This document shows positions 21,357-27,238 of a DNA stretch of 27,238 bases, one piece after another. Position 1 is the stretch's first letter, and each line of letters starts with the position of its first letter. A program made the position numbers and the translations under genes. Below the pieces are notes generated by a model. It made no database searches. It saw nothing but the letters and a program-made list of their open reading frames with translations, and was not told where the DNA came from. The DNA is from a virus. Location: the IMG/VR virus record IMGVR_UViG_3300008266_000380, positions 1 through 27,238 of that record. One strand, 5' to 3'.

Positions 21357-24300
21357 ATGGCTGATGAAGTAGACTTTTCTCAGTACAGTATTGATGAGCT
21401 TAAAGCTATTGCACGAAGTGCGCCTCCTACAGAGGAAGCAGGATTGCTTGATTGGGCTTTAACAAGACCAGACGGCACAAAAACTTCTATTGGCCAAATA
21501 GCAGCAGACATACCGATTGGCGTAGCAAGAGCTGGTGCTGGCCTTGCTGATATTTTATCTCTTGCAGGTCGTTCTTTGACCGGACAGGCATTTCAACGTA
21601 GCACTCCAACGTTTTCGGCGGCTGAATCGTTACAAAAAGGTTTGAAACAAATCGGTTACGGTGAAGAGACGCCGTTGCAAAGAGCGGTAAGTTTTATGAC
21701 GCCGATTGCACCAGCAAAACTCGGACAACAAGCATTAGCCGGGCTTTTGTCTTATGGAGGTGCTGAAATAGGTAAAGAAAGTGGAGGCGTTCCTGGAGAA
21801 ATTGCTGGTGCCGTGTTAGCTCCAACAGCAGGACAGCTAAGCATATCTGCTCTTCGTGGCGTTGCTCCTATTGCGCAAATCTTAGCAGGAAGCACTCCTG
21901 CGATGGAGCGAGCTGTTTCTAGAGAGTTAATTGCTGCTGCGGGTCCAGAAGGTGTGGAACGTTTGCGAGCAGCACAAACTTTGCCGGAAGCGTTGGTGTC
22001 TCCCTTAGGGCAACCGATTACCGCAGCAGAAATTGCACAAACACCTGGACTTGCAAGTGTGCAATATCAATACGGGAAAGAAATTCCAACCGGTCAATTA
22101 CTGACAGATACCGCAGCGGCACGTAAGGCTGCTCAAGAAATGGCGTTATCTGAGCTTGGTCGAGTGCCTCAACGAGGCGAATTAGCCGCTGGATTACGTC
22201 AGGTCGCTACACAAGCTGCGGCTGAAAAAGCTGCTAAAGAAGCAAACGTTTTAGAGAGTTTAGGACTAACGGAGGAGCTTCGTCGAGTTACTCCGGCAGA
22301 GCGTGGGCAGAGAATCCTGGAACAACTTAATTTAACCAAGGAATCTGATGTTGTTAAATCCATCGACACAGATATTACCTCAAAGATTCCGACTGCCGCT
22401 CAAGAACCAAGCAAGCTGGTAAAAGCACTTGGCGAAAGTCTTGCTTCAAAAATTGCTACTGCCAGAGAAGCAGCAAAAGAAGCTGGTCGCACCGCTTTCA
22501 AGGATCCTGAGGTATATAACGTATCAGTTGATCTGCCGGATATTCGCAAGGATGTAAAAGGTATTGTCTCAGACTGGAAGCGAGATCCCTCTCAGCGCAT
22601 TGACGATGCACGAATCACGCAGCAGATAAAACAATTAAAAGCCTTGGCTATTCCAACTAAAGACCTGCCTGAAGGTGTTGTTGCCACAGCTCGCATTGGT
22701 GAACTGCACAACATTCAAGTAGAGCTTGGCAAGGTAATTGCAAAAGCTAAAACGGGAGAAGCAACGCCAGGACAAGCACTAGCAAAATCGCTTTATAATT
22801 ATGTCGGGAACATCATTGACAAAGCACCTGGTTCTGAAAAATTACTAGAAGCAAAAAGCAAATGGCGATCATATTTTGACACGTTTGTATATGATCGAGA
22901 ACGTCAAAAAACATCTCCGCTTAAAGCTATCATTGGTAAAAGCCCAGAAGATGTTGTTACTTTTCTCACGAGTAAATCTGTCAACGTAGAAGCACTTAAA
23001 AAAGCTGGCATTGATCTTACTGATATAGAAACACAAAAACTTAGTGAATTTGTAAATCTCCCAAATGCTAAAAAGAAACTTCAGTGGATTGAAACAAATC
23101 GACCAAAACTTTCTGAAACAGGTTTCTGGCCAAGCATTGAAAAGTACGCAGAGCAACTCAAAACTGTTGCTGGCGAACCTTCTACGGTAGCTGCAAAACG
23201 AGTTAGTGAGGTTGTTGATTTGGCCCTTCGCAATCCTGAAAACGCTGCTGATATTGTCAGCCGTACTGGTGGTAAAGAATTGCGAGATGAATTGCTAACA
23301 CGATTAGAAAACCAAGGGAAAAAAGCGCAAACGTATCTTCGTAGCAATTTGGATACGTTCAAAGCTGTATTTGGGTCGGATGTCAATAAAATCTCGGAGT
23401 ATGCAACGTCAGTTGGAACACCGGACGAGTTTGCTGCATACGCCAAAATTGAAGATGCCACGATTCCAAAAACTATCTTTAGTAATGCGCAACGCACTAA
23501 AGATTTTATGGCAAAATTTAAAGGCACCGAAGCTGAATCATTAGCTCGTGGCCGTTTTATAGCGGATTTGAAGCCAGAGCGTGCAGGACTCGCAGAACGT
23601 CTCAACAATCAAGATCAGATTGCTCGGGCATTGTTTGGTGATGATTTGAATAAAGTACAAACGGTGGTTAACGACATTGAAAGTTCTCGCTTGCCGTTTG
23701 AAAAAGCAACTACCGCAACGGGTCGTCAATCCATTACGGGACAGGTCGGCACTACAATGGGATATATTTTTAGCCAACGTGCGCTGATTAAGAGCATGAA
23801 ACTTGGCCAAGTAATGTCGCCTACTCTCGCTTTGTACGATCCACTTCAAGCACTTTCTACTTTTGCGGTTGGACGCTTAGGAGCATTACGAGATTCGCAA
23901 ATGAATGAAATTGCGATTAAGATGCTGAAGGATCCAAAGTTAATTGACTTAGCGGCTGCTCCACCTACAGTTGATAACGTAAAACGTTTCACTGAACAAC
24001 TTACTCAACTTGGATATTTTGCAACAAAAGCGAAAGGTGACAAACAAATAACCGCACCCGAATCTTCTTTAAGCACAAGTGCAGAAACACCGCAAACATC
24101 AGAAACATTAGAAACCGACGAGGTAGACTTCAGTCAGTATTCTGTGGATGAGCTAAAAGCTATTGCTCGAATGGCTGAGAAAACACCAGCGCCAGTAGCA
24201 CCAACACAGCCTGTGGCCAAACAAAACATCAGCGCATTGATTGCAGAACAACCACCAATCATCCAGGCGATTATCAAGACAGAATCGGCGGGCAAGCCAA

Positions 24301-24614
24301 AAGCTGTAAGCGGTAAAGGTGCACGAGGACTGATGCAGCTCATGCCTGGAACAGCTAAGGAACTTGGCGTAGACCCTAACGACCCTGCGCAGAATATCGA
24401 AGGTGGCACACGCTACTTCAATCAGATGAAGGACCAATTTGGCGATACTAAACTGGCATTAGCTGCGTATAACTGGGGTCCAGGTAATCTCAAGAAAGCG
24501 CAAGCAAAGGTTGAGGCGAAGGGTAAGAAACCAACGTGGGAAAATGTATTAAAGTATGTCTCTGTGCCTAACGAGACAGAGCAGTATGTAAAGAAAGTAT
24601 TGAGTTTAGCGTAG
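21357..24614 (+). CDS. Large ejection protein with C-terminal lytic transglycosylase
   Basis: 1085 residues. The last ~120 residues are an SLT (soluble lytic transglycosylase) domain: catalytic Glu 976 in KTESAGKP, GARGLMQLMP (988-997) and AAYNWGPG (1036-1043). The enzyme cuts peptidoglycan so that DNA can pass. Here the domain is at the C-terminus, unlike T7 gp16, where it is N-terminal. The body is helical and Ala/Glu-rich, with an N-terminal hydrophobic segment (about 40-75). The motif DEVDFSQYSIDELKAIAR occurs twice, at 3-20 and 921-938 (one change), the second just before the SLT domain. It is the last gene before the fibre. Confidence 0.88.
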   Translation: MADEVDFSQYSIDELKAIARSAPPTEEAGLLDWALTRPDGTKTSIGQIAADIPIGVARAGAGLADILSLAGRSLTGQAFQRSTPTFSAAESLQKGLKQIGYGEETPLQRAVSFMTPIAPAKLGQQALAGLLSYGGAEIGKESGGVPGEIAGAVLAPTAGQLSISALRGVAPIAQILAGSTPAMERAVSRELIAAAGPEGVERLRAAQTLPEALVSPLGQPITAAEIAQTPGLASVQYQYGKEIPTGQLLTDTAAARKAAQEMALSELGRVPQRGELAAGLRQVATQAAAEKAAKEANVLESLGLTEELRRVTPAERGQRILEQLNLTKESDVVKSIDTDITSKIPTAAQEPSKLVKALGESLASKIATAREAAKEAGRTAFKDPEVYNVSVDLPDIRKDVKGIVSDWKRDPSQRIDDARITQQIKQLKALAIPTKDLPEGVVATARIGELHNIQVELGKVIAKAKTGEATPGQALAKSLYNYVGNIIDKAPGSEKLLEAKSKWRSYFDTFVYDRERQKTSPLKAIIGKSPEDVVTFLTSKSVNVEALKKAGIDLTDIETQKLSEFVNLPNAKKKLQWIETNRPKLSETGFWPSIEKYAEQLKTVAGEPSTVAAKRVSEVVDLALRNPENAADIVSRTGGKELRDELLTRLENQGKKAQTYLRSNLDTFKAVFGSDVNKISEYATSVGTPDEFAAYAKIEDATIPKTIFSNAQRTKDFMAKFKGTEAESLARGRFIADLKPERAGLAERLNNQDQIARALFGDDLNKVQTVVNDIESSRLPFEKATTATGRQSITGQVGTTMGYIFSQRALIKSMKLGQVMSPTLALYDPLQALSTFAVGRLGALRDSQMNEIAIKMLKDPKLIDLAAAPPTVDNVKRFTEQLTQLGYFATKAKGDKQITAPESSLSTSAETPQTSETLETDEVDFSQYSVDELKAIARMAEKTPAPVAPTQPVAKQNISALIAEQPPIIQAIIKTESAGKPKAVSGKGARGLMQLMPGTAKELGVDPNDPAQNIEGGTRYFNQMKDQFGDTKLALAAYNWGPGNLKKAQAKVEAKGKKPTWENVLKYVSVPNETEQYVKKVLSLA

Positions 24615-25535: not shown

Positions 25536-25781
25536 ATGGACTGGCTAAATTTATTACCGCCACAAATATCTGCCAACGAAGCAAGCGATTCATTTCTTGA
25601 ACAAATAATTCGACATTATCGCAACACGCAACTTGCCGCATCTGACTGGACACAGCTCCCAGATATTGAAACGGACAAAGTTGATGTTGCAGCGTGGCGT
25701 GTCTATCGCCAGGAGTTGCGGGACATGATGAACAAAGGCGTACCACCGAAAGAGATTGTCTTTCCTACGCCTCCAATATGA
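25536..25781 (+). CDS. Tail-fibre assembly/chaperone-like small protein
   Basis: 81 residues; the ATG is 2 bases after the fibre stop, with AGGAG upstream (25521-25525). The second half has the pattern RNTQLAASDWTQLPDIE followed by VAAWRVYRQELRDM and a PPKEIVFPTPP end. This pattern (LaxSDW, YRQxLRD, FPxPP) is frequent in small proteins encoded next to phage tail fibres, where they act as assembly proteins or tail chaperones. The N-terminal half is not similar to anything I recognise. The position after a fibre gene supports the call. Its stop overlaps the next ATG by 4 bases. Confidence 0.65.
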   Translation: MDWLNLLPPQISANEASDSFLEQIIRHYRNTQLAASDWTQLPDIETDKVDVAAWRVYRQELRDMMNKGVPPKEIVFPTPPI

Positions 25782-26197
25782 AGCAGTTAAGGCTTGTCAG
25801 AGTTACGGAGCACAACGGCGCTACGTTTGGCGTTCTCTGTATCGACGATGCGCCTGAGTTTGTTACGCTTGAAGATGCGTGGCGAGACAATGAAACGAAC
25901 ATTAGTTGCATACCTCAAGGCCGTTACAAGATAGTCCGGCACAAGTCGCCTAAGTTTGGTTTGGTATACAAGGTTTGTGACGTACCTGAGCGTGAACATA
26001 TTTTGATCCACGCAGGTAATACCCACAAGGATACACACGGCTGTATTTTACTTGGGATGCAATACGGTAAACTTGGTCCTGAATCTGCTGTCCTTGCAAG
26101 TCGGTCTGCGTTTTTGCAGTTCATGGAGAAGATGCAGGACACTCCAGAAGCACAACTGATTATCATTGATGCTTATGGTGGAGGCCGTGTCCATTGA
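25778..26197 (+). CDS. DUF5675 family protein, possible cell-wall enzyme
   Basis: 139 residues from the ATG at 25778, which overlaps the previous stop (ATGA); a longer frame start at 25694 lies inside the previous gene and is less likely. The pattern (FGVLCIDD, TLEDAWRDN, CIPQGRYKI, then HILIHAGNTHKDTHGCILLG at 74-93) is that of DUF5675 proteins, widespread in phages and often near lysis genes. H78, H87 and C89 in HAGN and THGCI resemble the catalytic His and [S/T]HGC of YkuD L,D-transpeptidases. Activity on peptidoglycan is inferred. It is the only candidate endolysin here apart from the secreted ORF at the edge. Confidence 0.8.
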   Translation: MKQLRLVRVTEHNGATFGVLCIDDAPEFVTLEDAWRDNETNISCIPQGRYKIVRHKSPKFGLVYKVCDVPEREHILIHAGNTHKDTHGCILLGMQYGKLGPESAVLASRSAFLQFMEKMQDTPEAQLIIIDAYGGGRVH

Positions 26198-26436
26198 CGG
26201 AGCAAGATTTAACACAATTCAAAACGTGGCTAGACCTAGCTGTAAAAGCAGCCATTGGCGTTGTCATATCGATTGTCGGAATGGATTACCGGTCTGTTAA
26301 GAACAGCTTAAAAGAGCTGGAAGAGTCGAAGTATCGCACCACGATGGAAGTGCAGATTATCCAGGCCGAATTGACCCATATAAAGAGCCAGCTTGAGCGA
26401 CTCGATAAGAAGATTGATAAGGTTTTAGACAAATGA
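26194..26436 (+). CDS. Small membrane protein with coiled coil (holin- or spanin-like)
   Basis: 80 residues, starting with TTG at 26194; that codon overlaps the TGA stop of the DUF5675 gene (TTGA), which makes this rare start plausible. A hydrophobic segment, LAVKAAIGVVISIVG (residues 15-29), is short for a membrane span. It is followed by a charged helix with heptad pattern (KNSLKELEESKYRTTMEVQI, and on to LERLDKKIDKVLDK). This N-terminal anchor plus coiled coil resembles small phage holin-like or i-spanin-like proteins. It overlaps both neighbours by 4 bases. A classical multi-span holin is not seen in the window. Confidence 0.6.
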   Translation: MTEQDLTQFKTWLDLAVKAAIGVVISIVGMDYRSVKNSLKELEESKYRTTMEVQIIQAELTHIKSQLERLDKKIDKVLDK

Positions 26437-27238
26437 AATTCCTGATTGTGCTGTTAGCATTTATGGCTACGGCACAAGCACAAGGCGCTAGTTACCTTGC
26501 CCTGTGTCATCCTTCTACCGACTGCAAGGCCGTTAAACGCACCTGGAGCGGCCAGGATACGATTATTACAGGTTGGCTAGAGCAAACCTTTGGCTCACAG
26601 TGCAAGTGCGCTGACGAGCTTTTACAGAGCCGTAAAGCCAAAGTCATACGAGTCCATCTGATAAACTCACCGTGTATGCGAAATGGCCGGTGTGGGAAGT
26701 ATGAGCTGCTTTATGGCGAGACGGCTGATTCAGCGAGTAAGAAGGTGCGGCGTGGCAATCGTCAGTTTTTGCACAAGTTCGACAGAATAGTTCGTAGGTT
26801 TCGGAACCGATTAAACAGAGCGACAGGTAGTGTTCAGTGTTTTGTGTCGCCGTGTCTTGAGTGTGACCTTGATGGAAGAGCTAGAACCCTACTTGCCGCT
26901 CGTGTATCTGCTATGCTGCCTGGCTGTAACATTGTGGATAATCCTTTCAGAACCGCCTGTTTGCCAGGGTACGTCTGTGAGAAGCATGGAGCAAGTCCTA
27001 GACTTACTGCGCCATGTATCGTTGATTTAGACGGCGTTGATGGGACTGATATAAACGTTGACAAGTTTGCCAAGCGTTATCGACACTGTGACATAGCCTT
27101 CTATTGGGAACATTGGATGAACTGTATTCGGGGTCCGTTTGTGGACCCACGGAAACGTGATTGCAAGTACGATAGAAGTATGTACGACTATACAAAGGGT
27201 ATTTTATGCCATTCTTTCTTGGGTCAATCATTCGACAC
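26433..27238 (+). CDS. Secreted Cys-rich protein (partial, runs off right edge)
   Basis: The frame opens at ATG 26433, overlapping the previous stop (ATGA), and stays open for 268 codons to the edge without a stop. The N-terminus (MKFLIVLLAFMATAQA) is a clear Sec signal peptide with predicted cleavage after residue 16 (AQA). The mature part holds 17 Cys, far more than any other protein here, consistent with disulphides in the periplasm. Strand-like segments AKVIRVHLINSPC, VQCFVSPCLECD, GCNIVDNP, APCIVDLDGVDG and HCDIAFYWEHWMNC recur at roughly even spacing, suggesting an alpha/beta barrel-type glycoside hydrolase fold; I cannot confirm this. It follows the lysis-region genes, so a secreted lysin is possible. 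Confidence 0.75.
   Translation, partial: MKFLIVLLAFMATAQAQGASYLALCHPSTDCKAVKRTWSGQDTIITGWLEQTFGSQCKCADELLQSRKAKVIRVHLINSPCMRNGRCGKYELLYGETADSASKKVRRGNRQFLHKFDRIVRRFRNRLNRATGSVQCFVSPCLECDLDGRARTLLAARVSAMLPGCNIVDNPFRTACLPGYVCEKHGASPRLTAPCIVDLDGVDGTDINVDKFAKRYRHCDIAFYWEHWMNCIRGPFVDPRKRDCKYDRSMYDYTKGILCHSFLGQSFD

Follow-up and report, generated by a model that had tools for sequence, protein, structure and literature searches.

A disulphide-rich, predicted exported TIM-barrel-like protein of phage lysis cassettes, and comparative evidence for a gene overprinted in its +1 frame

A gene at the right-hand edge of an environmental phage sequence encodes a cysteine-rich protein with a predicted export signal and a predicted barrel fold. 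We tentatively read this protein as a third component of the lysis cassette of a Gram-negative phage, namely an accessory envelope-degrading enzyme acting beside the endolysin and the holin, and put the probability of this reading at about 0.45. Gram-negative lysis is usually described in terms of a holin, an endolysin and spanins. The DNA analysed (hereafter, the window) is the IMG/VR virus record IMGVR_UViG_3300008266_000380, a stretch of 27,238 bases that may be an incomplete genome. Its cassette is listed in Table 1, together with a small gene lying inside the barrel gene in another frame.

Table 1. Coordinates of lysis-region features in the window.
Feature	Position	Strand	Remarks
Tail fibre assembly chaperone, final structural gene before the cassette	25536..25781	+	PF16778, E 9.3e-14; phrog_4912, E 4.2e-14
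DUF5675 protein	25778..26197	+	PF18925, E 5.4e-34; conserved IHAGNTHKDTHGC motif
80-aa protein	26194..26436	+	One N-terminal-side membrane span and C-terminal coiled coil; TTGA/ATGA overlaps on both sides
TIM-barrel-like protein, predicted exported, disulphide-rich	26433..27238	+	272 aa when complete
Sec signal peptide of the barrel protein	26433..26483	+	MKFLIVLLAFMATAQAQ; cleavage near AQA; read directly from sequence
Nested gene, single-span membrane protein	26872..27030	+	MEELEPYLPLVYLLCCLAVTLWIILSEPPVCQGTSVRSMEQVLDLLRHVSLI; +1 frame inside barrel gene; 52 aa
Two-span holin gene, start	27206..27238	+	MPFFLGSIIRH...; first 11 codons, cut by window edge

The barrel ORF opens with an ATG at 26433 that shares an ATGA with the stop codon (TGA) of the gene before it, and runs without a stop for 268 codons (26433-27236) before its frame leaves the window, just as an earlier note on this DNA had described. 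That note had also advised obtaining the sequence past 27238 and allowed that an early stop, or the lack of a globular fold, would speak against its proposal. The missing end was found in contig L003, which carries a complete, 99%-identical protein of 272 aa whose mature portion is the same as in the window; as detailed below, it gave a model with a pLDDT of 93. By this comparison four residues and the stop codon lie beyond the window edge, and the alignment places the end of the gene at about 27251. Among relatives at 74-86% identity, dN (~0.08-0.17) lies far under dS (~0.9-1.3). Thus, the ORF is not a chance one, and codon comparison indicates that it is under strong purifying selection. Two other sequences, L018 and L021, are both ends of one contig (3300034023_000185, 35,040 bases), with the barrel gene apparently incomplete at each, which implies an assembly break inside this gene. 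This contig and others of ~33-37 kb point to a genome of about 35 kb and to an incomplete window.

Four scans of IMG/VR each recovered as many as 178 stretches encoding barrel relatives, from which 105 distinct complete proteins, one of them cellular, were drawn. The family gave no usable match in Pfam, PHROGs, NCBIfam, PDB chains or INPHARED (50,697 phage records), and weak matches of single members (e.g. phrog_17176, E 0.0038) were put down to chance. Searches of Pfam, PHROG and other profiles provided no sequence link to known lysin families, nor was a description of such a barrel protein or nested gene found in the open full-text literature, subscription journals being outside the scope of the search. 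The cellular homologue (L103, 9914-10849) comes from a Deltaproteobacteria MAG and is 29% identical (profile E 1.5e-41). Its contig shows no visible phage genes, and by our reading of the ORFs its neighbours are AAA ATPase-like, Hsp20-like and Lon-like genes; for this reason, the ancestral role of the barrel protein may have been something other than lysis. The L103 protein appears to be exported by its N-terminus, and it keeps the candidate catalytic residues and 8 of the 18 cysteines described below. A survey of 46 genomes from the phylum of the L103 genome produced no further cellular homologue.

Export of the barrel protein is predicted from its N-terminus. A hydrophobic stretch is present in all 104 family members tested (membrane spans, throughout this work, were read from Kyte-Doolittle averages); the relaxed -3/-1 rule is satisfied by 103 of them, and 87 have an AxA no more than 7 residues from the conserved mature start. 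The earlier note had proposed a signal peptide for the window protein, whose hydrophobic N-terminus ends in AQA. A lipobox (LAAC) occurs in a single homologue out of 104, that of L173, which is a predicted lipoprotein.

The note had further counted 17 cysteines and supposed that many would form disulphides, and both points are supported. The window ORF has cysteines at 25, 31, 57, 59, 81, 87, 136, 141, 144, 165, 176, 182, 195, 219, 231, 244 and 259; the complete L003 protein adds an eighteenth at 270, and 18 cysteine columns are conserved across the family. Losses were tallied over the 105 distinct complete proteins, the cellular one included. Cysteines 259 and 270 are both absent, with no other loss, from 14 sequences; 141 and 144 are missing jointly with 259 and 270 from 5, and 136 and 165 are jointly absent from 3. 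Since cysteines disappear pairwise, the pattern supports the presence of about nine disulphides, several of whose pairings can be read from it. The L103 homologue keeps eight cysteines and lacks 25, 57, 141, 144, 176, 182, 231, 244, 259 and 270. Strict pairing is broken in two proteins, L173 (without 231, 244 and 270) and L208 (without 244, 259 and 270), and the C-terminus of the latter looks disrupted around the missing residues. We rejected a cytoplasmic or virion protein in view of the signal peptide and the paired cysteines.

The gene occupies a constant position. In 76 of 77 distinct loci it is preceded by the tail fibre gene, the DUF5675 gene and the gene for the 80-aa protein, the single locus without the upstream DUF5675/80-aa set fitting the cellular L103. 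A gene for a two-span protein of 60-63 aa follows directly in about 95 of 105 loci, mostly overlapping the barrel 3' end by some 10-60 nt in another frame. In the window this overlap is in the +2 frame; the complete copy of the downstream gene (L003, 5722-5913) matches Pfam PF23987, Phage_holin_10, the Pam3 gp28 family (E 3.8e-8, 33.7 bits against a cut-off of 27). Hence the barrel gene sits between an endolysin-type gene and a Phage_holin_10 gene, in the lysis neighbourhood that had been claimed for it. In profile searches the 80-aa protein gave weak matches to coiled-coil families only. No DUF5675 phage without a barrel gene was found: 69 of 73 new loci have one, and the four that do not are short, with fewer than 750 bases after the DUF5675 match.

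In the divergent phages L185, L200, L206, L214 and L223, DUF5675 was not found. Instead, a gene for an SLT-type transglycosylase (PF01464, 3.2e-14 in L185) precedes and overlaps the barrel gene. These cassettes have a coiled-coil one-span protein before the SLT gene and a 56-57-aa membrane protein after the barrel gene. In L173 the gene that precedes the barrel gene encodes a T4-type phage lysozyme (PF00959, 6.3e-7), and the next gene after it encodes a 75-aa membrane protein that weakly matches a holin. Thus, a separate endolysin-type gene (DUF5675, SLT or T4-type lysozyme) lies upstream in every phage cassette examined. Because the endolysin gene is exchanged while the barrel protein stays, the latter is probably not the endolysin but a constant third partner in the cassette, and the suggestion of the earlier note that it may itself be a signal-driven lysin is not supported. 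Conversely, the fact that SLT or phage lysozyme takes the equivalent place in divergent phages makes the DUF5675 protein, from its context, most likely the endolysin of the window cassette. The coiled-coil one-span protein of the divergent cassettes is unrelated to the 80-aa protein and has its span at the C-terminus instead; analogy suggests that the two may share a function, either XhlA-like or holin-regulating.

Some further observations concern wall-active proteins in these phages. The DUF5675 motif HAGN...DT.GC recalls YkuD L,D-transpeptidases; hhalign between the two gave a weak alignment over the THGC motif (probability 12.5, score 29), and we regard a YkuD-type active site as a lead, not a result. 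Homologues of DUF5675 occur even in tiny Gokushovirinae/Microviridae genomes, where one is unannotated, and another is encoded a short distance after the late activator gene of Vibrio phage martha 12B12. The window also encodes a late protein of 1085 aa (21357-24614) whose sequence towards the C-terminus resembles that of an SLT lytic transglycosylase (IIQAIIKTESAGKPKAVSGKGARGLMQLMPGTA...); it is probably a virion-associated cell-wall enzyme, and its length varies strongly among relatives (711, 862 and 1021 aa). Finally, the early region of L119 (13792-15000, minus strand) encodes an SLT domain protein, either exported or anchored (PF01464, 1.6e-21), whose gene is clustered with those of a small membrane protein and another exported protein and with a short ORF resembling a lipoprotein. 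This cluster could be a second lysis set or an entry-related one.

The structure of the mature L003 protein was modelled with AlphaFold2 from an alignment of 65 sequences, giving a model with a pLDDT of 93.1 and a pTM of 0.91. A first model, made from 13 sequences, had a pLDDT of 67, and the fold search run with it was not relied on. Predicted strands span mature residues 2-3, 26-32, 52-61, 117-125, 148-152, 164-168, 178-181 and 204-207; each of the four segments that the earlier note had called strand-like contains one of them (52-61, 117-125, 178-181 and 204-207). Foldseek returned mostly TIM barrels as best PDB matches (the glycoside hydrolase GH5 Cel5, PslG, a mannanase, fucosidases and LeuA), the best having a non-significant E of 0.023 (TMq 0.45) and none a TMq above 0.48. 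Far closer to the model are three phage proteins without assigned function in BFVD, from uncultured Caudovirales phage: A0A6J5M538, A0A6J5SYH0 and A0A6J5MYV4 (TM-scores 0.86, 0.79 and 0.73; E 5e-18 to 5e-12), which differ in length from the barrel protein and are 21-23% identical to it.

Polar residues invariant among phage and cellular homologues include H75, R83, E143, E183, H185, D198, D200, N230 and R242; H75, E143, E183/H185 and D198/D200 are unchanged even in the ~29% identical cellular homologue. E143 also stays where the flanking C141/C144 pair is gone (SPxLESD). The model places several of these residues at or near strand ends, with H75 at beta-3, E143 just past beta-4, E183/H185 at beta-6 and D198/D200 at beta-7. 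With reference to the catalytic Glu pair of GH clan A, a Glu follows beta-4 in the model, as it does in the Cel5, PslG, mannanase and fucosidase barrels, whereas the end of beta-7 carries Asp; the 18 cysteines are a further difference from GH TIM barrels. Comparison of the barrel profiles (A4/A5) with a GH5 alignment by hhalign indicated no relation (probability 0.1-0.2), and none of the 65 members had a GH family match in Pfam. The model therefore supports one part of the proposal that the protein is a TIM-barrel hydrolase, a barrel-type fold being predicted; the hydrolase part is conjectural, with PDB matches at E of 0.02 or more and TM below 0.5 and no GH5 profile similarity. We read the model as an irregular TIM-barrel-like fold, probably that of an enzyme, of no assignable GH clan.

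A second coding sequence, which formed no part of the earlier description, lies in the +1 frame within the barrel gene. It was analysed in 68 relatives less than 90% identical, with 200 synonymous-codon shuffles providing the expectation. The nested ATG is kept in 63 of the 68 (shuffle mean 37, maximum 46), and 67 have 40 or more open codons in this frame (mean 7, maximum 14); start, open frame and membrane span occur together in 62, against 1.8 expected and a maximum of 6. The product is exactly 49 aa long in 63 of the 67 that reach 40 aa, the window copy having 52. Synonymous differences in the span region amount to 0.42 of expectation, compared with 1.10 elsewhere (z -11.9), and this dip persists at identity cut-offs of 70, 60 and 55% (z -11.4, -7.9 and -5.0). 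Over the four cut-offs, the ratio of observed to expected synonymous divergence is 0.42-0.61 inside the nested overlap and 1.07-1.10 outside. Where the holin gene overlaps the barrel 3' end, there is a second, smaller dip, which provides a positive control within the data. Close relatives have a dS of 0.28-0.43 in the nested region and of 1.15-2.0 outside it; L019, which is the most distant of six compared, shows little contrast (1.08 versus 1.34). A GGAG-like element about 10 nt upstream of the nested start is favoured (the window copy reads CTTGAG), and the E143 codon is GAG in 61 of the 68, compared with 61% gene-wide, mostly with a G before it.

A chance open frame was rejected on the strength of the codon shuffles. 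Shared codon ancestry is dismissed as the source of the dip, the same pairs showing none elsewhere and the dip persisting below 55% identity, while RNA structure alone would not explain the avoidance of stops combined with the conservation of start and length. Together, these comparisons give strong support to an overprinted gene. Its product has no canonical lipobox. L103 has no nested ORF and L173 no hydrophobic span at that place, which makes the barrel protein appear older than the nested one.

How might such a protein contribute to lysis? That the barrel gene is kept while the endolysins beside it are exchanged speaks for a role not covered by the endolysin. In the mechanism we favour, the protein would be made late and secreted by Sec, oxidised in the periplasm by the host Dsb system, and would cut a glycan or glycan-linked envelope component untouched by the endolysin, so that the outer layers would fail as soon as the holin has fired. 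Both small membrane proteins, the nested one and the 80-aa one with its coiled coil, might help or modulate the holin, or else link the exported protein to the inner membrane. Weighing against an enzyme are the non-significant Foldseek values in the PDB, the missing Pfam and hhalign GH5 matches and the Asp at beta-7. As a third lysis enzyme acting on outer envelope layers, the protein would resemble mycobacteriophage LysB in concept. LysB is an esterase with an alpha/beta-hydrolase fold, found in phages of mycolic-acid hosts, and has no relation to the barrel protein.

A different, unlikely possibility is that the protein replaces spanins, disrupting the outer membrane non-enzymatically with an inner-membrane partner (the nested or the 80-aa protein) in convergence with Rz/Rz1. 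It occupies a suitable slot beside the endolysin and the holin, and as in lambda Rz/Rz1 the gene of an exported cassette product contains another gene in its +1 frame, for a membrane-associated protein; the barrel and nested genes are indeed an embedded pair within a lysis cassette. Among 677 phages surveyed, 528 have two-component spanins, 182 of them embedded, while 91 have none recognised (PMC6139136). The gene-in-gene layout resembles these embedded spanins, and dependence on Dsb disulphides, common among spanins (PMC6139136), would have its counterpart in the barrel disulphides. An outer-membrane lipoprotein subunit is lacking, however: unlike Rz/Rz1, the barrel protein has a cleavable signal and no lipobox in all but the L173 homologue, whose LAAC would suit a spanin, the nested product has no lipobox, and a coiled-coil bridging domain is absent. 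Moreover, the barrel is predicted to be globular, with conserved acidic residues and no coiled coil, and by our own reading the charges flanking the span of the 80-aa protein suggest an N-out/C-in topology, wrong for an i-spanin. The early regions of several relatives contain short ORFs resembling lipoproteins, and true spanins may be encoded elsewhere in these genomes.

Two other readings seem to us improbable. One, put forward in the earlier note, is a second peptidoglycan hydrolase, a muramidase- or glucosaminidase-like enzyme driven by its export signal. GH-type barrels do top the fold search, and a glycosidase would complement DUF5675 if the latter is a peptidase, but other phages pair the barrel protein with SLT or T4-type lysozyme; since these neighbours already cleave glycan, a second peptidoglycan glycosidase would be redundant. 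A cleaved, free periplasmic muramidase would also lyse the cell early unless restrained, and sequence provides no tie to known lysin families. SAR endolysins (P1 Lyz, phage 21 R21) and signal-peptide endolysins share Sec export, a cassette location and the involvement of cysteines with the barrel protein. Unlike the SAR proteins, with their uncleaved, weakly hydrophobic domain, it has a cleavable signal (AxA at the conserved boundary in 87 of 104), a separate endolysin gene and no lysozyme family match. The other reading, which we consider equally doubtful, is a lysis-timing or superinfection factor that would act without catalysis, by binding a receptor or the holin on its periplasmic side, in the manner of the T4 antiholin RI. 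RI is likewise exported and disulphide-bonded; the barrel gene lies beside holin genes, and the nested small membrane protein could be a partner. Yet the barrel protein is much larger than RI, and the conserved His, Asp and Glu residues at modelled strand ends, kept in the cellular homologue, argue for catalysis.

On the favoured reading, a third lysis component with an accessory enzymatic role, the lysis cassettes of well over a hundred environmental phage contigs include an additional exported component that belongs to no known family. The cassette also provides contextual evidence for DUF5675, a common phage "unknown", as an endolysin, and the nested gene is of a kind that gene callers likely miss. 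It is conceivable, if unlikely, that the barrel and nested genes form a new, non-spanin system of outer-envelope disruption, an independent counterpart of embedded Rz/Rz1. If so, an exported, disulphide-knit barrel would work together with a partner in the inner membrane whose gene occupies the same DNA in a different frame.
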